Source: Lachnospiraceae bacterium UBA4317 (GTDB lineage: Bacteria; Bacillota_A; Clostridia; Lachnospirales; Lachnospiraceae). Taken from it: a stretch of DNA of 10,200 nucleotides. Location of the stretch: contig DGUF01000211.1 of assembly GCA_002394525.1 (NCBI GenBank), positions 9,600 through 19,799 of the forward strand. Reading direction: 5' to 3'. This document shows, one piece after another, positions 1 to 9,199 of this stretch (positions are counted from its first letter, which is position 1; every line of letters begins with the position of its first letter). The position numbers and the translations under genes were made by a program. Below the pieces are notes generated by a model. It was not told the DNA's origin. It worked only from the letters and a program-made list of their open reading frames with translations, and ran no database searches.

Positions 1-32
1 AGAGTGCCTGTCCCCTTGTCACACTTGTCCCC
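1..32 (-). repeat. type 1 GGGGACAGGCACT element, truncated by window edge
   Basis: Bases 3-22 are the exact reverse complement of GTGACAAGGGGACAGGCACT, which recurs at 8949-8968, 8973-8992 and (inverted) 9013-9032. Bases 1-25 are identical to 9011-9035. A second partial core (CTTGTCCCC) follows at 24-32. The element lies immediately downstream of the cotH1 stop codon and, read on the strand of that gene, is in the sense orientation. The partner arm, if any, lies outside the window. Confidence 0.85.
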
Positions 33-35
33 GCA

Positions 36-2153
36 TCAGGGAATATAGACCGGATCAAACTCCCGGTCTTCATAGATGGGCTCGTCGGGCTGCAGGAGGT
101 TTCCGGCGGGATCCGACCAGCCGGTGATGAAGCCGTTGGCTTCGCGCTGGGGGGAGGACTGCTTTTCGCCGTAGTCCCAGGTGGGCAGAAAGCCCATGCT
201 TTCCCCGTCGCGGACGTAGTAGGAGAAGTCGTCCCAGGCGAAGTGGAAGAGGAGGCGGTGGAAGCTGTCCGGGTCGCTGTAGTAGTCGTGGAGGAACTGG
301 ACTCTTTCCTCGAGCAGGGTCTTTACCAGGCCGGTGCGCTCGTCGTAGTCCAGGTCCTTGTGCCAGCGGAGGTAGTGGAGTTTTGTATCGACTTCGAGGA
401 GGTCCCTGTTCTGGTCATATTCATTTTTCAGAATATTCCGGATGACGGGCTCCAGCTCCTCCAGGTAGATCTTTGAGACCAGGGCGGCGAAGTCGGGATC
501 CTGGCCCATGCGATGGAGCCAGCGCTTGCGGCCGTCCCTGAGCCAGAGGGTCCGGGCGGAGGTCTTGTAGTAGTCGCCGCAGTTCATGTTGCCCAGGCAG
601 AGGTCGAAATCCCAGACGGGGCCGCAGTAGAGCAGGGGGTCGCCGGCCTTTTTGTAAAAGAAAAAGCTGTAGAACTCGTCGTCGGACTGGACGAAGAAGT
701 CCTGGATCAGGTACATGCGGGCCCAGGAATCCATGTCAAAGTAGTCGAAGCAGGTCAGGCCGGTGTCGGGGTTGGTCCAGTCGTCGGCGAAGAGGGCCTT
801 CTCGGCCTCGCGGACATAGTCAGCGATGTACTGGTATTCGCTGACCGAAGGCTGGGAGGGCGACTGGATGTCGATGTGGTGGGTATCCGTCGAAAACCAG
901 ACGTCGTTTTTGCTGTAGCGCTCGTCCATTTCCAGCAGATAGCCGCCGGAGATGTCCTCGGGATCATTTTCCCAGTCGTAGGCCAGGGCCTCGTGGCCGT
1001 CCTCATCGGTCTCCATGACGATGCTCTTGAGGGTCTTGCGGGGGAGGGCCGCGCCATCGGCAGTAGAAGGACTGGAATCGCTCTTGTCCGCGGCAGAGGC
1101 GCCTTCCGTGGAACCGGTCCCGGAATCGGCCGTTTCCCCCAGGTCGTCCGCGTCCGCCTGCTCGGGATTGGCCTTGCGGTTGGCCTTCTGCAGGTTGTTG
1201 ATCTTCACAGTGCCGCCGCTGACATTGAGCCGCTGGTTGAGCAGGTAGAGGGCCTGGTAGCGGCCGTTGATATAGAGGTTGACGAAGCGGGTCTGGGGCG
1301 TGTAGGCCAGGCCCAGCCGCTCCGCGGCCAGGAAGGCATAGTACTGGCGGACCTGGGAGGAGTCCCAGAAATTGGCGATCAGGGCAAACTTGCGGCAGCT
1401 GCTCATGCCCAGGAGCTCATTTTCCTCCTCCATGTTGAGGTTGTAGGGCTTCTTTTTCTGGGACCAGGTGGAGTTGCCCCGGCCCTTGATGCTGCAGGTT
1501 CCGCTGCTGTCGGGCGTGCCGTCCGTCTGATAGATCCGGTAGACCGCGTCCTCCGACGTCTCGTGATGGCGGTCGTCGTTGACAGCCTCCATGGATCCGC
1601 TGGCGGTCTCGATATACATGGAAGGGATATTTTGCGTATAGAGAAAAACGACATCCTGAGAGTCCGCGGAATTGCCGTCCGCGTCCAGGATCGTAAAGGT
1701 GTAATGGACATTCTCAGCGAAAGCCGGGAGCCTGTCTCCGGACCGGAAGGAGCCGGAGATCTTTTTTTTCGAATCATTGCGGCTGTCGTCGGGGGCCTCC
1801 TCGACTGACAGGGTCTCGGCGCTGTTCATCCGCAGGAAGAGGTGGTCGTCCATTTCCGCGGGGACATAGGCGTACCAGGTGCCGGAGTCTTTGTCCTCGG
1901 TCAGGCGGAACCAGGCCTCCTCGTTCTCGTGCCCCTTGTCCGGGACAGGGTTCCCGATGATCCTCTCGTCGGCCCTGCCGCTGAAGGTCAGCCCCTCGAA
2001 ACCGGCAGGGTAATCCTCCGCCCGCCCCTCAGGATCCAGCTGCCAGTGGGGATAGTATTCGTGGTGGCTTTCGATCCTGGCGCCCAGGATGAAAATGATG
2101 CTCAGCGCGCCCAGCAGCAGGAGCGGGACCGCGTGATTGTATTTTTTCTTCAT
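36..2153 (-). CDS. CotH-family atypical kinase, membrane-anchored (paralogue 1)
   Basis: Encodes 705 residues. The start at 2153 is preferred over an in-frame upstream ATG because GAAAGG lies 10 nt upstream and the protein then opens with a short basic stretch (MKKKYNHA) followed by a hydrophobic segment at about residues 9-24, a signal anchor or signal peptide; the rest is probably extracytoplasmic. CotH-family motifs appear in order: GRGNSTW (224-230), KKPYNLN (234-240), FVNLYINGRYQALYLL (about 290-305), KINNL (from 317), GGYLLEMDER (403-412), FVQSDDE (487-493) and WDFD (514-517). By family knowledge, the Asp of the QSDDE segment (D491) corresponds to the proposed catalytic Asp and WDFD supplies the metal-binding Asp; this assignment is from memory of the family. 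A low-complexity Ser/Asp/Ala/Gly linker occupies about 325-375. The substrate is unknown: the founding family member phosphorylates spore-coat proteins, but nothing here indicates a coat role. It appears monocistronic, and I found no convincing promoter. Confidence 0.88.
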   Translation of the reverse strand: MKKKYNHAVPLLLLGALSIIFILGARIESHHEYYPHWQLDPEGRAEDYPAGFEGLTFSGRADERIIGNPVPDKGHENEEAWFRLTEDKDSGTWYAYVPAEMDDHLFLRMNSAETLSVEEAPDDSRNDSKKKISGSFRSGDRLPAFAENVHYTFTILDADGNSADSQDVVFLYTQNIPSMYIETASGSMEAVNDDRHHETSEDAVYRIYQTDGTPDSSGTCSIKGRGNSTWSQKKKPYNLNMEEENELLGMSSCRKFALIANFWDSSQVRQYYAFLAAERLGLAYTPQTRFVNLYINGRYQALYLLNQRLNVSGGTVKINNLQKANRKANPEQADADDLGETADSGTGSTEGASAADKSDSSPSTADGAALPRKTLKSIVMETDEDGHEALAYDWENDPEDISGGYLLEMDERYSKNDVWFSTDTHHIDIQSPSQPSVSEYQYIADYVREAEKALFADDWTNPDTGLTCFDYFDMDSWARMYLIQDFFVQSDDEFYSFFFYKKAGDPLLYCGPVWDFDLCLGNMNCGDYYKTSARTLWLRDGRKRWLHRMGQDPDFAALVSKIYLEELEPVIRNILKNEYDQNRDLLEVDTKLHYLRWHKDLDYDERTGLVKTLLEERVQFLHDYYSDPDSFHRLLFHFAWDDFSYYVRDGESMGFLPTWDYGEKQSSPQREANGFITGWSDPAGNLLQPDEPIYEDREFDPVYIP

Positions 2154-2214
2154 AATATAAAAACCTTTCGGCTGTTGTATTTGAAAAACGGCATTGATGC
2201 CATACACATGAAAA

Positions 2215-2282
2215 CACATGAAATTGCCGGAGCGGCGTATGAACTGTCATAGCTGCCGCGCACATGAAACTGCCGGAGCGGC
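2215..2282. repeat. 22-bp direct repeat upstream of cotH1
   Basis: CACATGAAA-T/C-TGCCGGAGCGGC occurs at 2215-2236 and again at 2261-2282, with one mismatch and a 46-bp period. It lies 60-130 bp upstream of the cotH1 start, where its promoter should be, but I see no convincing -35/-10 pair on the minus strand here. Confidence 0.7.
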
Positions 2283-2399
2283 ATTCAAATCGTATAGCCA
2301 TGGCCTGATATTGACAGAGTGAGCCGGCGATATTTTCAGCAAAGTACTTTTTTCATCATAAACGTATCGACAAAAATCCACAAGATTCTTTTTGCCCCC

Positions 2400-2476
2400 T
2401 GCCGGACCGGACTGATTCTACTTGCTCCTGCCGGACTTTGTTTTACTTGTTCCTGCCGGACTTGTTCTGCTCGGAG
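2400..2476. repeat. degenerate 25-bp tandem repeats (TGCCGGAC core)
   Basis: TGCCGGAC occurs at 2400-2407, 2429-2436 and 2454-2461. The last two lie in a 25-bp unit of the form ACTTGYTCCTGCCGGACTT, and a further partial copy (ACTTGTTCTGCTCGGA) follows. It directly precedes the 52-bp array. The stretch 2283-2399 shows a lone TTGACA (2311-2316) with no -10 at a workable distance, and nothing else that I can identify. Confidence 0.6.
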
Positions 2477-2489
2477 GACATATCTGACG

Positions 2490-2814
2490 AAAGGTCACGC
2501 ATATTTTCAGAAGGGGAAGCGACAGAGCTGCCGCGGGAGAGAAAGGTCACGCATGTGCGAGAAATCCGTGTCGCCCAGAGGGGATATCAGACAAAAGGTC
2601 ACGCATATTTCCGGTAGGTGAAGCGACAGAAGCACCGAAAGAGAGAAAGGTCACGCATGATTCCGGAAAGCGAAGCGACAGAGCCGCCGCGTGGGCGAAA
2701 GGTCACGCATGTGCGAGAAATCCGTGTCGCCCAGAGGACATATCCGACAAAAGGTCACGCATGATTCGGGAAAGCGAAGCGACAGAGGAGCCAAAAGAGA
2801 GAAAGGTCACCCCT
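2490..2814. repeat. 52-bp tandem repeat array, 6 full units plus a partial
   Basis: The 13-mer AAAGGTCACGCAT starts at 2490, 2542, 2594, 2646, 2698 and 2750, with a degenerate copy (AAAGGTCACCCCT) at 2802: an exact 52-bp period without a single indel. Two unit types exist. Type I (2490, 2594, 2646, 2750) continues with a TTCCGGAAAG-like segment and GAAGCGACAGA. Type II (2542, 2698) continues with GTGCGAGAAATCCGTG and TCGCCCAGAGG. The two type II units are 156 bp apart and differ at only 3 of 52 positions. The end of a preceding type II unit (GGACATATCTGACG) is visible at 2476-2489. The 52-bp period breaks any reading frame, so I treat the array as noncoding. It ends about 65 bp before the galactokinase -10 box. 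Confidence 0.92.
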
Positions 2815-2856
2815 GTGCCGGTCGCAAAAAATGCATAAAAAAAAGCCATTTTTCCA

Positions 2857-2886
2857 TACAAGACTAAATCGCTCTGCGCGTATAAT
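2857..2886 (+). promoter_or_regulatory. candidate promoter of the galactokinase gene
   Basis: A perfect TATAAT (2881-2886) lies in an AT-rich stretch about 107 bp upstream of the galactokinase ATG. No good -35 is present at 17 bp (TACAAG at 2857-2862 is the nearest, with an 18-bp spacer and weak match), so an activator may be needed or the call may be wrong. The 52-bp array lies directly upstream. The roughly 100-nt leader contains only a small CTGCC/GGCAG hairpin near 2938-2950. Confidence 0.5.
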
Positions 2887-2992
2887 GAAATATAAAAAAG
2901 AATAGGTTGCACATGGGCGCAAGTATTGACGTGGAGTCTGCCGGGGCAGGAACCATCGGGGAAGCTGCAGGGCAGGAAAGGGGGAAGAGAAC

Positions 2993-4282
2993 ATGTATGA
3001 CAGAAAGACACTGGCGCAGGAGCTGCGCCGGGGAGCAGTCAACACCAGGATCGAGGAGGTCTACGGCTGCAGCTCGCCGCAGACGGAAGTCTATGCGGAG
3101 CGGCTGGCAAGGGTGGCAGAGGGATTTGACGCCACATTTGCGGACAACGCCTCGGACCGGCTGGGCCTCTACAGCGCACCCGGGCGCACTGAGATCGGCG
3201 GCAACCACACAGACCACCAGTGCGGCTGCGTGCTGGCTGCCAGCGTAAATTTGGATGCGGTCGCGGCTGCGGCCCCCAATGGCAAAAATACCATCTGCTT
3301 CTTTTCAGAAGGGTACGGGATGATCGAGGTGGATCTGGACCGGACAGAGCCTGTCGAGTCCGAGAAGGAGTCCACGGCCGCCCTGATCCGCGGCATGGCC
3401 GCCCAGGCAAAGGAGCGCGGATTCGAGATCGGCGGCTTTGACGCATACTGCACCAGCAGCGTGCTGGGCGGCTCCGGCCTCTCCTCCTCAGCGGCTTTTG
3501 AGACCCTGACGGGGGTCATCCTCAATGACTTTTACTGCGATAATACCTTTGACGCGGTGGAGATCGCGAAGATGGGCCAGAAGGCGGAGAACCTCTGGTT
3601 CGGCAAGCCCAGCGGCCTGATGGACCAGTCCGCCTCCTCCGTCGGCGGTGTCGTCGCCATTGATTTCGCAGATGTGGACAAGCCCGTTGTCGAGAAGATC
3701 GACCTCAACCTTGCGAAGGAAGGATATGCCCTCTGCATCATCGACTCCCGGTCCAGCCACGCCGACCTGACCGACGCCTATGCGGCGATCCCCGAAGAGA
3801 TGAAAAAAGTCGCCGCCCTCTTTGGCCAGACATATCTGCGCGGGATCACAATGGACCAGCTCCTGCAAAAGACTGAAGAGATCCGCAGCGCCTGCGGCGA
3901 CCGCGCCTTCCTGCGCGCCATGCACTTCGTGCTGGACAACGAGCGCGCTCAGCAGGAGGCCCGGGCCCTGCGGGACGGGGACTTCGACCGCTTCCTCGGC
4001 ATCGTGAATACCTCCGGCCATTCCAGCTATGAATACCTGCAGAATACTGCCGTTGAGGGCAGCGTCTCCAGCCAGGCCGTCAACGTCGCCCTGGCCCTCT
4101 GCGACGTCCTCCTCGGAGGCCGCGGCGCCCACCGCGTCCACGGCGGCGGCTTCGCCGGCACCGTCCAGGCCTTTGTCCCCCTGGACATGCTCGAGACCTT
4201 CCGCGCCGGCATCGATGCCGCCATCGGCGAAGGCAGCTGCCACGTCCTCTCCATCCGCCCCGTCGGAGGAGCCATCCTGTAA
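2993..4282 (+). CDS. galactokinase-family GHMP sugar kinase
   Basis: Encodes 429 residues, slightly longer than the 380-400 typical of GalK. The start is supported by a GGGGGAAG ribosome binding site. All three GHMP/galactokinase motifs are present: the sugar-binding signature APGRTEIGGNHTDH (62-75), the phosphate loop GGSGLSSSAA (159-168) and the C-terminal HGGGFAGT (383-390). GLMDQ (208-212) places the catalytic base at D211, and R65 of motif 1 is the usual partner. The expected reaction is ATP-dependent phosphorylation of galactose or a close analogue at C1 in the cytosol, feeding the Leloir pathway. Motif 1 is unusual: classical enzymes read GRVNLIGEHTDY, whereas here the sugar-contacting Glu is Asn71 and the Tyr is His75. 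A divergent clostridial galactokinase branch seems likely. No galT or galE neighbour is visible, so the true substrate is inferred only. The 3' third of the gene uses C-ending codons markedly more than the 5' part. Confidence 0.87.
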   Translation: MYDRKTLAQELRRGAVNTRIEEVYGCSSPQTEVYAERLARVAEGFDATFADNASDRLGLYSAPGRTEIGGNHTDHQCGCVLAASVNLDAVAAAAPNGKNTICFFSEGYGMIEVDLDRTEPVESEKESTAALIRGMAAQAKERGFEIGGFDAYCTSSVLGGSGLSSSAAFETLTGVILNDFYCDNTFDAVEIAKMGQKAENLWFGKPSGLMDQSASSVGGVVAIDFADVDKPVVEKIDLNLAKEGYALCIIDSRSSHADLTDAYAAIPEEMKKVAALFGQTYLRGITMDQLLQKTEEIRSACGDRAFLRAMHFVLDNERAQQEARALRDGDFDRFLGIVNTSGHSSYEYLQNTAVEGSVSSQAVNVALALCDVLLGGRGAHRVHGGGFAGTVQAFVPLDMLETFRAGIDAAIGEGSCHVLSIRPVGGAIL

Positions 4283-4302
4283 GACTGCGGACGCCCGGAA
4301 GG

Positions 4303-4352
4303 GCCGTCAGATGCAATCATCCGGGAAGCCGTCAGCTGCAATCATGAGAAGG
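4303..4352. repeat. two-copy 25-bp tandem repeat
   Basis: GCCGTCAG-A/C-TGCAATCAT occurs at 4303-4320 and 4328-4345 in a 25-bp period, just after the galactokinase stop codon. The preceding CCCGGAAGG suggests a third degenerate unit. No coding potential. Confidence 0.65.
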
Positions 4353-4424
4353 AATTCTCTATTCCTCAGCCGACCGAATATGATCGGCAGGGATGTTATC
4401 CGGTCGATAAGATCATGAAATTCT

Positions 4425-4468
4425 ACCGCCGCGCCAGGCCCTTACATGAGCCCGGTACGGCGGTTTTT
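4425..4468 (+). terminator. rho-independent-like terminator after galactokinase
   Basis: Arms ACCGCCG (4425-4431) and CGGCGGT (4458-4464) form a 7-bp GC-rich stem around a long 26-nt loop, followed by a T run (4464-4468). It lies about 140 bp after the stop codon. The long loop makes it weaker than a textbook terminator. Confidence 0.6.
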
Positions 4469-4491
4469 ATGTGACCAAAGAACATGTCCAC

Positions 4492-4635
4492 GGCCTGATC
4501 CACCTGCGGCCTGATCCACCTGCGGCCTGATCCACCTGTGGCCTGATCCACCTGCGGCCTGATCCTTCTGCGTCCTGATCCTTCTGTGACCTGATCCTCC
4601 TGCGTCCTGATCCTCCCGCGGCCTGATCCGCGTCC
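4492..4635. repeat. 16-bp tandem repeat array, 9 units
   Basis: The CCTGAT core starts at 4494, 4510, 4526, 4542, 4558, 4574, 4590, 4606 and 4622, an exact 16-bp period. The consensus is GGCCTGATCCACCTGC. The first units are nearly identical (CCACCTG) and later ones drift to CCTTCTG and then CCTCCTG, a gradient typical of expansion from one end. The period is not a multiple of three, so the repetitive reading frames across it on the minus strand are by-products. Between this array and 4812 I see only a 10-bp direct repeat GCTGTCCTGA (4740-4749 and 4761-4770). Confidence 0.93.
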
Positions 4636-4812
4636 CGGGGGCGGCGTCCCGATTTTACCATCCACCTGCGCAAAACTTGCAGAAATCGCCCCCTTTTGGC
4701 CAGAAAACATCAAAAAAGACCTAAAGAAGCCGGGATTTTGCTGTCCTGATTTTTATCAAAGCTGTCCTGAAATAGATTTCCTCCCCCAAGTCCCAATGCT
4801 AATATGTACACA

Positions 4813-4832
4813 GATCAGGGGAAAACCTGATC
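4813..4832. promoter_or_regulatory. perfect inverted repeat upstream of promoter, possible operator
   Basis: GATCAGG (4813-4819) and CCTGATC (4826-4832) are perfect 7-bp arms around a 6-nt spacer, 20 bp upstream of the TTGACA box of the next gene. No T run follows on either strand, so a terminator is unlikely. The arm CCTGATC is the same heptamer repeated nine times in the 16-bp array. Confidence 0.5.
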
Positions 4833-4852
4833 GGGAAAAAACAAATTACAAT

Positions 4853-4880
4853 TTGACAAACACCAATCGATAAATACCAT
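4853..4880 (+). promoter_or_regulatory. sigma-A-like promoter for the 82-residue gene
   Basis: A perfect TTGACA (4853-4858), a 16-bp spacer and TACCAT (4875-4880, 4 of 6 matches) lie about 70 bp upstream of the start codon at 4950. This is a reasonable vegetative promoter with a leader of about 60 nt. Confidence 0.6.
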
Positions 4881-4949
4881 TCAGATTCATCCGGAAAATA
4901 AGGAAAAAATGCGGATGAAGGCGCAAAGAGAGCGCAGGAGGAAATAAAT

Positions 4950-5198
4950 ATGAAGATCAGAAACTACAGCGAAATCCAGGAACTCAACGCAGCACTTGAA
5001 AAGTGCACAAACTCCGTCTGGCTCATGGGCCCCAACGACGAGTCCTACGATATGAAGAATCCCGAGGAGTTCATCAACGGCATTCTCAGACTCACAGAGG
5101 GCAACAAGAACAACGATGCCGACCAGTTTGGCCTTTACACCAATACCCTCCAGGATGAGGTCATCCTGAAGGACGTCTGCCGCAAGCTGGCTGCATAA
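4950..5198 (+). CDS. small protein of unknown function, 82 residues
   Basis: A short soluble protein, beginning MKIRNYSEIQELNAALEK, with no membrane segment or signal peptide. AGGAGG (4936-4941) sits 8 nt before the ATG, an ideal ribosome binding site, and a promoter lies upstream, so it is very probably expressed. The sequence mixes charged and hydrophobic residues, with a CTNSVWLMGPND segment (19-30) that looks like a beta strand and turn, followed by an acidic NPEEFINGILRLTEG helix (37-51). It carries two Cys (C19, C78). It resembles, from memory, small uncharacterised proteins common in Lachnospiraceae, but I cannot name a family or function. It stands alone between the 16-bp array and a convergent gene. 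Codon use (AAC, GAG, CTC rich) looks like that of its neighbours. Confidence 0.8.
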   Translation: MKIRNYSEIQELNAALEKCTNSVWLMGPNDESYDMKNPEEFINGILRLTEGNKNNDADQFGLYTNTLQDEVILKDVCRKLAA

Positions 5199-5205
5199 GG
5201 CATCC

Positions 5206-5230
5206 GGCTCGCAAGACCCGCGAGCGAGCC
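5206..5230 (+). other. hairpin after the 82-residue gene
   Basis: GGCTCGC (5206-5212) and GCGAGCC (5224-5230) form a 7-bp GC stem 8 nt after the stop codon. Only TT follows, so it is not a classical terminator. It may stabilise the transcript, which then ends at the stronger hairpin at 5301-5347. Confidence 0.5.
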
Positions 5231-5300
5231 TTGAAATCATGAAAAGAGTTTATCTGCAGATGCTCACCCAAAGCTCTGCAGGCACGAGAGAAAACAAAGA

Positions 5301-5347
5301 CAGGTCCGAACGTACTGATTTTGCTTCAGTATGTCCGGACCTGTTTT
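5301..5347. terminator. bidirectional terminator between convergent genes
   Basis: Arms 5301-5318 and 5326-5343 pair over 18 positions with one mismatch and one G-T pair around a 7-nt loop. TTTT follows on the plus strand (5344-5347). On the minus strand the sequence past the stem reads TCTTTGTTTT. It can end both the plus-strand 82-residue gene and the minus-strand DUF1284-like gene. Confidence 0.85.
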
Positions 5348-5376
5348 GAGTCAAAAGGGGACGGTTCTGCTGACTC
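5348..5376. repeat. type 2 GGGGACGGTTCTG element
   Basis: A GAGTC/GACTC-bounded element with core AGGGGACGGTTCTG. Its reverse complement matches 9171-9198 closely: both are bounded by GAGTC and GACTC and share CAGAACCGTCCCC. The outer GAGTCA (5348-5353) and TGACTC (5371-5376) are inverted. It abuts the terminator at 5301-5347 and overlaps the stop codon of the DUF1284-like gene. Confidence 0.8.
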
Positions 5377-5968
5377 ACGCCCGCCCCGAGCAGATCTCTC
5401 TGCACAGGGACAGCCACTCGCAGTCCGGACAGCAGGCCTCAAGCAGTTCGGAACTCATGCGCGGCATGCCCTTGGACGCCGGCCCCTCCGTGAAAACATG
5501 GCCTGCCGCCAGGCCTGCATAGTCCAGGACCAGCTCATCAAAACGCTCAGGCTTATCAGACCGGCACCGGCCGTCAACACAGTTGGGACAGCTGCAGCAC
5601 AGGTCGTCACAGCCCCGGACCAGCCGGATGGAAGTTTCACTTATTCCCGTCTCACTTATTCCTGTCTCCCTGGCTCCTGTCTTTTTGCCTCTCGGCTCGC
5701 CTTCCCCCGATTCACCGGACTTGCTGCCTTCCCCTGACTCATCCTTTCCGCGATCAAAAAATGGCAGAAACCCCGTCCGGCCGGATATTTCCGTCATCCT
5801 CTGCACAAATTCCGGGCTGTAGCCCCGGCCGCGGAAATTCTGCAGACACAGAAGGTGGTGGGGACGCAGACGGACCTCCTGCAGGGCTTCTTCTCCGGAG
5901 GCGCCTTCATTCGGGGAACCACAATTATTTTCACTGCGCACATTTAAATCGGATAAATCTCTGAGCAT
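5375..5968 (-). CDS. DUF1284-like cysteine-rich protein
   Basis: Encodes 197 residues. The start at 5968 is chosen because GAGG lies 7 nt upstream; in-frame GTG/ATG codons 5-6 codons upstream have no ribosome binding site. The RPHHLLCLQNFRGRGYS segment (35-51) is the hallmark of DUF1284. The C-terminal part holds clustered cysteines: C120, C124, C125, C127, C130 and C135, then C179, C180, C183, C189 and C193, in CxxC-like arrangements that suggest metal or iron-sulfur binding; this is inferred, and the family function is unknown. Residues about 72-113 are a low-complexity Gly/Glu/Ser/Lys insert that includes three 5-residue repeats (ETGIS). DUF1284 proteins are usually about 130-150 residues, so the insert and the N-terminal extension account for the excess length. 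The gene converges with the 82-residue gene, and its stop lies inside a type 2 element. Confidence 0.78.
   Translation of the reverse strand: MLRDLSDLNVRSENNCGSPNEGASGEEALQEVRLRPHHLLCLQNFRGRGYSPEFVQRMTEISGRTGFLPFFDRGKDESGEGSKSGESGEGEPRGKKTGARETGISETGISETSIRLVRGCDDLCCSCPNCVDGRCRSDKPERFDELVLDYAGLAAGHVFTEGPASKGMPRMSSELLEACCPDCEWLSLCREICSGRA
5637..5681. repeat. 15-bp in-frame tandem repeat in the DUF1284-like gene
   Basis: TCACTTATTCCCGTC (5637-5651), TCACTTATTCCTGTC (5652-5666) and the degenerate TCCCTGGCTCCTGTC (5667-5681) repeat every 15 bp. On the minus strand they encode ETGIS-type pentapeptides inside the low-complexity insert. The period keeps the frame, so copy number can vary without breaking the gene. 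Confidence 0.8.
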
Positions 5969-5994
5969 GAAAAAACCTCGCATCACTATTTTGC

Positions 5995-6024
5995 TTGACG
6001 CTTCTTTGTACGAAAAGGTATGAT
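5995..6024 (+). promoter_or_regulatory. sigma-A promoter of cotH paralogue 2
   Basis: TTGACG (5995-6000), an 18-bp spacer and TATGAT (6019-6024) give 5 of 6 matches at both boxes. The start of transcription would be near 6031, giving a leader of about 177 nt before the ATG at 6208. It is divergent from the DUF1284-like gene. GGTATG (6017-6022) and CATACC (6056-6061) form a loose inverted repeat overlapping the -10. Confidence 0.65.
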
Positions 6025-6090
6025 TATCTACGCTGTAAAATTAATATAAAATTAACATACCAATAACATACGAATGGTAATTTGATGAGC

Positions 6091-6134
6091 CCCGGTCATT
6101 GCCGGGATCTTTTTCCCGATTTTAAAGAATCGGG
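6091..6134 (+). promoter_or_regulatory. two leader hairpins upstream of cotH2, first terminator-like
   Basis: CCCGG (6091-6095) and CCGGG (6102-6106) form a short GC stem followed by ATCTTTTT, which resembles a small intrinsic terminator inside the leader. CCCGATT (6115-6121) and AATCGGG (6128-6134) form a second, perfect 7-bp stem with a 6-nt loop. The arrangement could be an attenuator, but I see no known riboswitch or T-box core. Confidence 0.4.
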
Positions 6135-6207
6135 ACATTCCCTGCCGGGATTTGCCGGATCAGTTCATGGCCCGCAAAAAAACGGCGGAAACAAACGGAG
6201 GACGCAA

Positions 6208-8910
6208 ATGCAGCGAAGAGAACACCGGATCACAAATAAACGGATCTTTTTCCTGATCCTGATCCCTGTACTGGCGGCAGTGGTCCTGCTGTCAAATTCA
6301 GAAAAGAGGGCCGGGGCCGGCAGCGGCGCCCCCGCAGAGTCCGCAAAAGCGGAGGACGCTGGCCGCGGCGGGGATGCCGGGCAGGACGGGGAAGCGGGCC
6401 GGGATCAAAAAGCTGAAGATTCCGAAGCTCAGGAAGAAAATAACGCTGCGGCTGCGGAAGGTACACCGGACAGTACAGAGGAAGCCGAAGGTGTGACCGC
6501 GGCCGCGGCCGCTGAGGAATACGATCCGGTCAAGGAAATCTCCTTTACCTGCAAGAAAAAAGCGGACCATCAGCGGTCAGTCCCGGTGCAGATCAATGCC
6601 GCGATCCTGGGCGGCGGGGAAGGCACAAAGTGCTGGGCCGTCTTCCTGCCGGCGGAGATGGCGGACCACCCGTATCTGCAGTTTACCGCCTATGAAAATG
6701 TGACCTTTGAGCCCCTGCAGGAGTGGGAGCGGCTGGGAACCGGTGTCCTGGCCGGCGGAGCCGGCCAGGACACCGATGCGCAGGATTCGGCCGCCGGATC
6801 TGCCGGCAACAATTCAGCGGAGAACCCATTGAGCGGAGCTGCCGCGGAATCCTTCGATGCCGCAGCCTCCGGTGCCCGCAGCTATGCCTCCGGGGAGGAG
6901 GTTGAGGACCTGACCAACGGCAGCGCCTTCCGCGTGCGGATGACGGCCGCGGACGGAACAGAGCAGACGACCGACCTCTATGTTTTTTCCTGTAAGGACA
7001 TGCCGACCATGTACCTGGACCTGGAGAGCGGCAGCACTGCGGCCGTGGACGCCGACAAGACCAAGCAGACCTCCGAGGAGGCGCAGTTTGTGGTCTGCAG
7101 ACCGGACGGAAAAACGGATTCCAGCGGCAGGTGCAGGGTCCGGGGCCGCGGCAACAGCACCTGGGGCATGATGAAAAAACCCTATAACCTGAATCTGGAG
7201 GAAAAGCAGAGCATTCTGGGGATCCGGGAGTGCAAAAAATACTGCCTGCTGGCCAATACCTTTGACCCCACAAACCTTCTGGACAGGATCTCCTCCCAGC
7301 TGGCGGCCGGATTTGAGATGCGCGATACGCCGGAGGGAGAGTTCGTCAACCTCTATCTGAACGGCAGGTACAACGGCCTGTACTTCCTGTCCCAGCGCCC
7401 GCGCACGGGCGGATCCGTGAATATCAAAAAACTGGATGACAAGATTCTGGAGGCCAACGGCCTTCTGACCGAGGAGGACAAGGCCGAGACCATGAGCCTG
7501 CTCGGAAGCACAGGCGATGAAGAGAGCGGGGACAGCGACCTGACCGCAGACCAGGCGGCAGGATCTGTAAATGCCACGGGCACTTCCGACAGCAGGAACG
7601 AAGAGCAGACTGCAGACCAGGCGGCAGGATCTGTAAATGCCACGGGCACTTCCGACGGCAGGAACGAAGAGCAGACTGCAGACCAGGCAGCAGGATCTGT
7701 AAATGCCACGGGTGCTTCCGGAAAAAAGAACGAAGATCAGACTGCAGGCCAGGCGCCGGGATCCGCGGATGCCGCATCCGCCTCCGGGAAAGAAGCTGAT
7801 AAGGGGACAGGCTCCGGGTCAGCCGTCCGGAATGAATCATCCGGACCGGCTGGGAAAGCCGAAACCTCCGGCCGGACTGCCCGGAAGACCTCCGCGCAGA
7901 TCCCCAAAAAGGTTGCCCTCCACGAAGAGGGAGACTCGTTAAAAAAATGGGCCTACAACTGGCCCAACGAACCGAAAAACAATACCGGAGGCTACCTGCT
8001 GCAGCAGTATTCCAGATACAGCGGGGACGGCTGCTGGTTTTCCACCAACCACCGCCGCTTCCGCATCATGTCTCCCTCCTGCCCCACAGTCGGAGAAGTC
8101 AACTACCTGTCCGATTATATGCTCTCCGCCGAGCGCGCGATCTACACGCAGGGCGGCCGAGACCCCGAGACCGGAAAACACTACAGCAGCTTTCTGGACC
8201 TGCCCTCCTGGGAGGACATGTTCCTGCTGGAGGAATTTTTCGCCGAGTGGGACGCGGAGCGCTGGAGCTTTTACATCATCAAGGACAAGGATGATCCCCT
8301 CCTCTACTGCGGCCCGGCCTGGGATTTTGACCACTCCGCCGGCACCATGATCTACGGCACCTACCCGGAGACGGCCGTCAGCATGCTGCTCTTCCGCGAC
8401 ACCCGCCACGGCTGGCTCTACAAGCTGCTGATGCACGATGAATTCGTCGAAGACCTCCACACCCGCTGGAGAGACTGCTTCTCCCCCGCCATCCACGCCT
8501 ACCTGGACGGACAGCTGGAAAAAGAGATCGCGGCCATTGAATCCGCCGCCTATATGAACAACATCCGGCGGGCCAACGACTACGACTTCCGGGAAAAAAC
8601 AGATGCCCTCACGACCTGGCTGCAGCGCCGCCTCGCCTTCCTGGACGACTACAGCAGCAGGGAGGACGGCAAAAAAGGCTCTGACAAATACTGCCGCGTG
8701 GAATTCCAGTTCAAATGGGGCTCCCTCTCCCACTATGTCCTGCGGGGCCAGCCCCTGGGCTACCTGCCCCTGCCTGAATTCGGAGAGACCCAGATCAAAT
8801 CCCAGATTGAAAAAAATGAGATCATCGCCTGGAAGGACGAAGAGGAAAAAGAGATCGACCCGCAGATCCTGATCGACCGCGACCGCGTCTTCACCCCCGT
8901 TTACCGCTGA
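6208..8910 (+). CDS. CotH-family atypical kinase, membrane-anchored (paralogue 2)
   Basis: Encodes 900 residues. The start at 6208 is chosen because GGAGGA lies 5 nt upstream and the protein then begins with a basic stretch and a transmembrane anchor at about 11-26; the open frame extends 42 codons upstream without a ribosome binding site. After the anchor comes an Ala/Glu/Gly-rich stretch (about 30-105), then the CotH core: GRGNSTW (313-319), KKPYNLN (322-328), FVNLYLNGRYNGLYFL (about 379-394), GGYLLQQYSR (594-603), FAEWDAE (678-684) and WDFD (705-708). D682 aligns without gaps to D491 of paralogue 1, the likely catalytic Asp. The linker between the KKL and GGYLL segments is about 150 residues and carries four 22-residue repeats. 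The motif GGYLLEMDER of paralogue 1 is GGYLLQQYSR here, losing both acidic residues, so activity could differ. Otherwise the two proteins align throughout, including the C-terminal G(F/Y)LP and PVY segments. Substrate unknown. Confidence 0.88.
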   Translation: MQRREHRITNKRIFFLILIPVLAAVVLLSNSEKRAGAGSGAPAESAKAEDAGRGGDAGQDGEAGRDQKAEDSEAQEENNAAAAEGTPDSTEEAEGVTAAAAAEEYDPVKEISFTCKKKADHQRSVPVQINAAILGGGEGTKCWAVFLPAEMADHPYLQFTAYENVTFEPLQEWERLGTGVLAGGAGQDTDAQDSAAGSAGNNSAENPLSGAAAESFDAAASGARSYASGEEVEDLTNGSAFRVRMTAADGTEQTTDLYVFSCKDMPTMYLDLESGSTAAVDADKTKQTSEEAQFVVCRPDGKTDSSGRCRVRGRGNSTWGMMKKPYNLNLEEKQSILGIRECKKYCLLANTFDPTNLLDRISSQLAAGFEMRDTPEGEFVNLYLNGRYNGLYFLSQRPRTGGSVNIKKLDDKILEANGLLTEEDKAETMSLLGSTGDEESGDSDLTADQAAGSVNATGTSDSRNEEQTADQAAGSVNATGTSDGRNEEQTADQAAGSVNATGASGKKNEDQTAGQAPGSADAASASGKEADKGTGSGSAVRNESSGPAGKAETSGRTARKTSAQIPKKVALHEEGDSLKKWAYNWPNEPKNNTGGYLLQQYSRYSGDGCWFSTNHRRFRIMSPSCPTVGEVNYLSDYMLSAERAIYTQGGRDPETGKHYSSFLDLPSWEDMFLLEEFFAEWDAERWSFYIIKDKDDPLLYCGPAWDFDHSAGTMIYGTYPETAVSMLLFRDTRHGWLYKLLMHDEFVEDLHTRWRDCFSPAIHAYLDGQLEKEIAAIESAAYMNNIRRANDYDFREKTDALTTWLQRRLAFLDDYSSREDGKKGSDKYCRVEFQFKWGSLSHYVLRGQPLGYLPLPEFGETQIKSQIEKNEIIAWKDEEEKEIDPQILIDRDRVFTPVYR
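7543..7806 (+). repeat. 66-bp in-frame tandem repeat in cotH2, four units
   Basis: Units at 7543-7608, 7609-7674, 7675-7740 and a diverged one at 7741-7806. Each encodes 22 residues of the type TADQAAGSVNATGTSD followed by an NEEQ-like end (residues 446-533). The first two units are almost identical at the DNA level, which points to recent duplication. The period is a multiple of three, so copy number can change without a frameshift. Confidence 0.92.
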
Positions 8911-8921
8911 GTGTCTGCGGC

Positions 8922-9034
8922 GTTACAAGGGGATGGGTACTTGTAGGTGTGACAAGGGGACAGGCACTCGGCGTGACAAGGGGACAGGCACTCTGTCACA
9001 GCATTGTGACAGAGTGCCTGTCCCCTTGTCACAC
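8922..9034. repeat. cluster of type 1 elements with a perfect 28-bp inverted repeat
   Basis: Three direct copies follow the cotH2 stop: a degenerate one at 8922-8941 (GTTACAAGGGGATGGGTACT), exact ones at 8949-8968 and 8973-8992, and an inverted exact copy at 9013-9032. The last pair belongs to a perfect 28-bp inverted repeat: arms 8973-9000 and 9005-9032 with a 4-nt GCAT loop. As RNA this would be an extremely stable hairpin; with no T run after it, it is not a typical intrinsic terminator. It may still protect or end the cotH2 transcript. No other terminator is visible after cotH2. Confidence 0.92.
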
Positions 9035-9036
9035 TC

Positions 9037-9064
9037 TCCTGACTCACTGTCCCTCCTGACTCAC
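9037..9064. repeat. TCCTGACTCAC direct repeat, degenerate type 2 element
   Basis: TCCTGACTCAC occurs at 9037-9047 and 9054-9064. The stretch CTGTCCCTCCTGACTCAC (9047-9064) resembles CCGTCCCCTCTGACTCAC at 9183-9200, so this looks like a decayed type 2 element next to the type 1 cluster. Bases 9065-9170 show no gene and no structure that I recognise. Confidence 0.55.
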
Positions 9065-9170
9065 CGGGCCGCGGTCTGCCTGAAAGCTGGCACCCTGTAG
9101 ATCAGACAGCAGCGGACCTTCGCCTAAATCTCCACAACCTTACAGCATGGAACTCTGCCGGAATCCCGAT

Positions 9171-9199
9171 GAGTCGACAGAACCGTCCCCTCTGACTCA
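9171..9199. repeat. type 2 GGGGACGGTTCTG element
   Basis: GAGTC (9171-9175) and GACTC (9194-9198) bound the core CAGAACCGTCCCC. It is the same element as 5348-5376, which lies in the opposite orientation. It ends two bases before the bioY stop codon. Confidence 0.8.

Follow-up and report, generated by a model that had tools for sequence, protein, structure and literature searches.

GGGGAC hairpin repeats behind stop codons in a Lachnospiraceae bacterium: probable REP-like mobile elements linked to Y1 transposases

Our analyses concern short GGGGAC-bearing elements at gene ends in a 10,200-nucleotide (nt) stretch of DNA from Lachnospiraceae bacterium UBA4317 (assembly GCA_002394525.1, contig DGUF01000211.1, positions 9,600 to 19,799), referred to here as the window. 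We conclude, with a probability of roughly 85%, that these elements are non-autonomous mobile hairpin repeats similar to repetitive extragenic palindromic (REP) sequences, that they are dispersed by TIRYT-type Y1 transposases and that they dock behind stop codons. The window itself contains the hairpins at their gene-end positions, and the matching gene ends of relatives lack them. Genome-scale tests were run on relatives of the window's bacterium, in which the hairpin arms pair and covary, the hairpins are linked to transposase genes, and dispersed copies dock at stops. An earlier note, made from the letters of the window alone, had placed two GGGGAC families at four gene ends, and its coordinates were confirmed (Table 1).

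Both types follow one plan, in which six-base self-complementary arms of differing sequence enclose a loop with GGGGAC: GTGACA-(AGGGGACAGGCACTC)-TGTCAC in type 1 and GAGTCA-(..GGGGACGGTTCTGC)-TGACTC in type 2. The suggestion that the types share a core is borne out, since GGGGAC stands in both loops and AAGGGGACRG, with at most one mismatch, occurs nine times in the window against 1.85 expected, a count reached in none of 200 shuffles; one of the nine (3309) sits in galK. The window holds five GGGGAC hairpins with exact arms of at least six bases, and none for each of eight permuted cores. A base-composition effect was judged unlikely because of these controls, and one of the five hairpins, at 4163-4186 in the galK reading frame, we take to be chance. 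The copy at 1..22 forms an exact 22-nt repeat with 8973-8994. Beyond the cotH2 stop, the degenerate type 1 copy at 8922 begins after 12 nt, and the copies at 8973-8999 and 9005-9032 belong to an exact 28-nt inverted repeat (100%) with 4 nt between its halves. Folding energy for 8947-9035 was -38.9 kcal/mol (z -10.1 vs shuffles). The type 2 element at 5348 does overlap the DUF1284 stop, as had been claimed, and it is antisense to DUF1284 and sense to the small upstream gene. Placement at stop codons held for the four gene ends but not for AAGGGGACAG at 7801, which lies within the cotH2 frame. There, at 7795-7823, where the second CotH frame has a low-complexity linker, AAGGGGACAG has short arms GCTGA/TCAGC and is possibly an old in-frame copy. 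Partial units (an arm plus GGGG) were also seen in tandem ahead of complete stop-side copies, both in the window (23-35, 8947-8969) and in genomes G419 and G425 (e.g. L283, L285, L286).

Copies of the same architecture are dispersed through relatives, here called genus or class members after the genus and class of G001, the genome of locus L001 (class taken as Clostridia). The pattern with GAGTCA arms was present in 17 of 61 genus genomes (90 copies in G425, 62 in G419, 42 in G414 and 24 in G004), and its reversed control gave no match in any of the 61. For GTGACA arms, 8 of the 61 genomes had matches, G003 with 27 copies, and the reversed control again gave none. The earlier expectation of many dispersed copies is thus upheld in relatives, at up to 90 per genome. 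Several G419 contigs (e.g. C13, C26, C57, C61) start or stop at a copy, as dispersed repeats are expected to break assembly. Longer relatives of the form GGGGACRG..AAAAGGACCGTCCCC, often in back-to-back pairs, were noticed at L096, L099, L105, L108, L109 and L164, the last beside a transposase.

The repeated unit is a short imperfect hairpin with polarity, formed by a single repeat on its own, with arms of ~5-8 bp that differ by family and a near-constant loop, GGGGAC(A/G)G. In an alignment of 14 representatives, 94% of cells were paired and 20 cells were changed on both sides, and none of 500 shuffles reached the covariation score; every one of the five arm pairs counted shows a two-sided change in at least one place. 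Copies frequently occur as inverted pairs. This arrangement holds for 35 of 50 copies in the G419 stretches, 29 of the 35 with a 12-nt spacer, and for 34 of 49 in those of G425, of which 25 have a spacer of 69-71 nt.

The six closest relatives (L001-L006) are metagenome-assembled genomes, mostly labelled Lachnospiraceae, with galactokinase identity of 86-89%, and the gene neighbourhood of the window is kept in relatives. At 14 orthologous gene 3' ends of these six, no element was found in the next 200 nt. This suggests, from sequence comparison, that the window elements are a recent arrival. An exact empty site cannot be defined in L001-L006 because their flanks are too diverged. A perfect empty site was also sought among 298 hairpin clusters, for which the matches listed were mostly overlapping loci of the same genome. 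Six cross-genome alignments of clusters gave no such site and showed copies that were shared or differed in number, or flanks that were unclear; copy number differs at shared sites between L191 and L188 and between L126 and L128.

Placement behind stops was evaluated in four copy-rich genomes with 134 clusters, of which 23 lacked two neighbours and 2 lay inside genes. Within convergent and tandem gaps, 72 of 100 clusters were within 30 nt of a stop, compared with 41.3 expected under even placement in the same gap. Clusters in tandem gaps were closer to the upstream stop in 49 of 65 cases (p 2.5e-5), and convergent gaps outnumbered divergent ones by 35 to 9 (p 8e-8). The predicted gene 3'-end bias is therefore present in the four genomes pooled. 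In some of the relatives' copies, gene and copy use one TGA, as the type 2 element and DUF1284 do in the window.

This placement also speaks for an RNA element that acts in the mRNA behind the stop, by stalling ribosomes or through stabilisation or termination, and that persists because of this role, with mobility incidental or past. Such a role is compatible with the elements being mobile, and we regard it as unlikely though worth serious consideration. Single copies in tandem gaps are more often sense (24) than antisense (9), although some may be decayed pairs, for which geometry alone would give a sense copy on the stop side. In the passages available of a paper citing an earlier study, E. 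coli REPs that lie no more than 15 nt from a stop are said to lower translation (PMC12306157). Further, the G425 pairs surround a covarying terminator-like stem. Spacers are at least 40 nt long in 22 of 23 distinct G425 pairs, and 21 of the 22 fold strongly (z < -3, simple shuffles). An alignment of 15 of the 17 spacers with lengths of 69-71 nt showed compensatory changes in 8 of 12 stem pairs; as many occurred in 1 of 500 shuffles and the score in none, while the number of further pair types was no better than shuffled. The 18 distinct stems of this type detected in the G425 stretches lie between element copies (15 by script, 3 by eye near decayed copies), and none was detected in ~1.86 Mb of other genomes. 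Judged by sequence, the stem may be a bidirectional terminator that the pairs carry as cargo. Stem-enclosing hairpin pairs were noted in G425 at L252-L271, L302, L303, L305 and L310. Against a purely RNA-based role stand the finding that no copy was seen at the corresponding ends in relatives and the absence of every window element from the list of intrinsic terminators (a scan for a GC stem plus T run). Moreover, a common loop with family-specific arms linked to transposases is not something that an RNA role alone predicts.

Linkage to transposases supports mobile repeats. PF01797 matches were found in 11 of 11 relatives and are of two kinds, a short IS200-like protein and a long one of ~250 aa. 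The long proteins share a conserved C-terminal R.TGI-like tail, and Y1_Tnp was assigned to 13 of 13 proteins of alignment A1. NCBIfam NF047646 matches all 13 (best E 1.8e-21; the first member reaches a score of 53.1, below the cut-off of 80). Pfam helix-turn-helix (HTH) matches in the long proteins are weak and scattered, that of the first member falling under the cut-off, and the sole related solved structure by sequence search is 4er8 (TnpA_REP; E 7.7e-4). A profile search found the long transposase in 26 of 61 genus genomes, with loci for 30 of 49 places. From 44 genus loci examined, removal of 8 duplicates, 1 without a usable frame and 4 partial or doubtful ones left 31. By our reading, GGGGAC hairpins of a recognisable family lie beside 14 of these 31 distinct transposases, on both sides within 700 nt in 9 of the 14. 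With exact arms of at least six bases, hairpins occur at 12 of the 31 loci, 41 hairpins in all vs 0-4 for cores other than the overlapping CAGGGG. No hairpin of this kind was seen by eye beside any of 14 short IS200-like loci. Across the class, the long transposase is present in 44 of 148 genomes. Of 29 class loci fetched, 26 were analysed by a looser rule, and 20 of these have GGGGAC hairpins, many with still other arms; exact arms of at least six bases gave 31 hairpins at 15 of the 29 loci, against 0-1 for ten other cores. Inverted repeats between the upstream and downstream sides were found at 22 of 26 class loci, compared with 11 of 78 mismatched pairings. The earlier idea that a Y1 (IS200-like) transposase would adjoin the same kind of hairpin thus proved repeatedly true in relatives.

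The arm sequence largely tracks the transposase clade. Families beside genus transposases have GAGTCA, K-TGTCA, GGAGACA, CTCACACA or TGGGAC arms or are of a longer type, and on the protein tree they require 6 changes for 7 groups, which is the minimum and was matched by none of 200 shuffles. G004 has three long transposases with three arm families alongside, one of these families with a single hairpin. On each side of the G414 transposase stand several copies of its own family. The 3' end of the G425 transposase gene is overlapped by a near-identical pair, with another pair ~1 kb upstream. Eight of the 17 genus transposases without such hairpins have inverted repeats around another motif, CCAGAGGT. 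In a sister group of long Y1 transposases, inverted repeats with ACCCCAGAGGT and varying outer arms were noted (L119, L127, L129, L156, L170, L172, L134, L138).

The same linkage makes it very improbable that the elements are terminal repeats, or miniature inverted-repeat transposable elements (MITEs), of a conventional insertion sequence of the double-strand (DDE) kind. The inverted pairs do resemble MITEs as these are generally known, but all 13 repeat-adjacent genes in alignment A1 are Y1_Tnp (no search aimed at DDE elements was made), and each single repeat is already a hairpin with polarity. Least probable of all is a local duplication confined to the window locus, which would fit the clustering of type 1 copies at 8922-9032 and the rarity of the exact type 1 sequence elsewhere but not the tens of copies of the same architecture in relatives, where reversed controls gave zero.

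Several observations weigh against mobile repeats dispersed by these transposases. The window contains no transposase gene, and the exact type 1 sequence is present in only 1 of 397 family genomes. A looser pattern gave 49 matches in 11 genomes, with 7 in the reversed control. Around galK, hairpins showed no excess over controls either in the six closest relatives (1 vs 0-3) or at 64 more distant loci (12 vs 5-18); the spread is therefore uneven. Seventeen of the 31 genus transposases lack a recognisable hairpin family (5 of them show stray loose-rule GGGGAC matches, left uncounted), and one of the 14 linked loci (L163) depends on a weak match. The overlapping core CAGGGG gave 12 hairpins in the genus loci vs 41 for GGGGAC. 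The GAGTCA group is not one clade on the protein tree, and support for the K-TGTCA branch is weak (80/55). Because G425 has 90 copies, the pair at its transposase end could have docked at a stop like any other copy and need not mark the end of an element. No long transposase was found at E 1e-20 in the copy-bearing genomes G419 (62 copies), G003 (27 GTGACA copies), G006, G420, G428 and G451. Since draft genomes may be incomplete, loss of the transposase and gaps in assembly are indistinguishable here. By hand counts, the transposase is present in 15 of 21 copy-bearing vs 11 of 40 other genus genomes (p 0.0023), a moderate association. As for stop docking, genes were called with our own simple codon-usage caller on stretches picked around elements, and the tandem-gap test was non-significant in G003 (p 0.11) and G414 (p 0.067) taken singly. 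Most hairpins of the covariation set were picked through their pairing arms, and the number of double-changed pairs was equalled in 49 of 500 shuffles. For this reason the core controls and the inverted-repeat result are the safer evidence, the latter because self-complementarity was not required for it.

Based on these observations, we propose a mechanism in which the repeats would be dispersed by Y1 (HuH) transposases of the TIRYT type, which have ~250 residues and a C-terminal tail that is probably HTH-like. The enzyme would recognise a single-stranded hairpin by its loop motif and cognate stem, and would then cut, and copy or move, a hairpin pair; inverted pairs in REPIN geometry are a common unit. 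The window's genome presumably carries or carried such a transposase. Insertions would survive mainly in the short stretch just behind stops, where an arm would sometimes provide the TGA, and the elements may in turn influence RNA or translation. A broader proposal, which we hold tentatively and at somewhat less than even odds, is that a second, loop-tagged class of REPs extends across the bacterial class. In such a class, the GGGGAC loop and a family stem would be read instead of a GTAG foot, copies would dock at stops and sometimes supply them, and in at least one lineage, that of G425, the pairs would have become mobile gene-end cassettes with a bidirectional terminator.

Regarding the window's other content, Pfam assigns two CotH proteins, GalK, DUF1284 and BioY, and in an Rfam scan the tRNA alone exceeds gathering scores. 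Other repeats are also present. In the cotH1-galK gap (2490-2815), AAAGGTCACGCAT or a close form occurs seven times with a period of exactly 52 nt. The region 3' of galK (4491-4634) has approximately nine tandem 16-nt repeats of CGGCCTGATCCACCTG, and the CotH linker at 7509-7772 holds 66-nt repeats.

Table 1. Elements and genes of the window; positions are those of the 10,200-nt stretch.
Feature	Position	Strand	Remarks
Type 1 copy 3' of cotH1	1..22	-	starts 13 nt after stop 38-36; right arm outside window
cotH1 stop (38-36) and partial unit TGCGGGGACAAGT ahead of type 1 copy	23..38	-	
Terminator-like stem beside type 2 element	5297..5347	.	22-nt arms 86% complementary, T4 tail; absent from consensus scan list
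Type 2 hairpin	5348..5376	+	minus-strand arm TGAGTCA provides TGA stop of DUF1284 (5377-5375)
Degenerate type 1 copy	8922..8945	+	arms TACAAG/CTTGTA around GGGATGGGTA; 1 mismatch; 75% to repeat family
Partial type 1 copy	8947..8969	+	left arm and core, without right arm
Complete type 1 hairpin, GTGACA AGGGGACAGGCACTC TGTCAC	8973..8999	+	
Complete inverted type 1 hairpin	9005..9032	-	REPIN-like pair with copy 8973..8999
Degenerate partial type 2 arms	9040..9063	-	minus strand TGAGTCA GGAGGGACAG TGAGTCA, read by eye
Type 2 hairpin	9171..9198	-	two bases past bioY stop (9203-9201)
Two cotH genes, galK, small gene (82 aa), DUF1284 gene, bioY, tRNA			gene content of window

Searches of open-licence papers, which cannot prove novelty, gave only matches unrelated by title for the strings GGGGACGGTTC and GAACCGTCCCC, no report on RAYT and REPIN in Firmicutes and, beyond the papers cited here, nothing further on a GGGGAC hairpin family among the matches listed. 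Terms for TIRYT do not occur in PMC3686654.

The earlier note had guessed at a REP-like family moved by a Y1/RAYT transposase. This is supported in kind, but the repeats are nearer to TIRYT/TIRtron repeats than to GTAG REPs. REP/RAYT/REPIN systems with GTAG, known from E. coli and Pseudomonas, are in the accounts at hand similar to ours in having short imperfect palindromes, inverted pairs, extragenic positions near 3' ends and a cognate Y1 protein. Two inverted hairpins at constant spacing, as in REPINs, were likewise found in relatives (12 nt in G419; 69-71 nt in G425). In contrast to those accounts, a GTAG/GTGG foot 5' of the hairpin is not apparent in inspected copies, and the conserved tag is in the loop. 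By eye, a GTAG consensus was absent from the left flanks of 99 G419 and G425 copies; among the window's copies, GTAG (8943-8946) stands 2 nt before the arm of a single partial copy and is missing from the others. The E. coli REPs just behind stops, as portrayed in part of PMC12306157, share with our elements a hairpin directly after the stop codon and differ in sequence family.

The closest described kind is the TIRYT/TIRtron repeat. According to the portions available of the original report, TIRYT genes are flanked by inverted repeats with GGGGWSAS, some of them in families (Di Nocera et al. 2013, PMC3733652). The likeness lies in a Y1 gene that stands between inverted repeats carrying a GGGG motif and in repeat families that often form dimers or clusters (PMC3733652). 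Among relatives, Y1 genes with flanking inverted repeats were seen at 22 of 26 class loci, and dispersed families occur in dimers and clusters (35 of 50 G419 and 34 of 49 G425 copies paired). With respect to GGGGWSAS, type 1 GGGGACAG fits and type 2 GGGGACGG deviates at the seventh base. In those portions the repeats count as terminal inverted repeats, of which some have self-complementary tracts (PMC3733652), whereas the GGGGAC families studied here form hairpins in which covarying arms enclose GGGGAC(A/G)G and which dock at stops. They differ from that account further in that the arm family largely follows the transposase clade and that the host bacteria are related to a member of the Lachnospiraceae.

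A survey of TnpA_REP proteins offers another comparison. In the part of it available, neither automatic nor manual searches are reported to have given REP-like sequences for subclasses 2.1 and 2.3 (Quentin et al. 2018, PMC6006769). Subclass 2.1 as described there is similar to our proteins in comprising long Y1 proteins, probably also in the HTH-like tail at their C-terminus, and it differs, if our proteins belong to it, in that REP-like hairpins are present here. The loop-tagged hairpins may be the missing partner of the subclass 2.1 transposases, and they offer a candidate substrate for a large subclass left without REP-like partners in that survey (PMC6006769). Pairs of transposase and hairpin with one loop and different stems form a natural series from which recognition rules could be read. 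They also make it testable why repeats end up behind stop codons and whether mobile elements spread gene ends or terminators.

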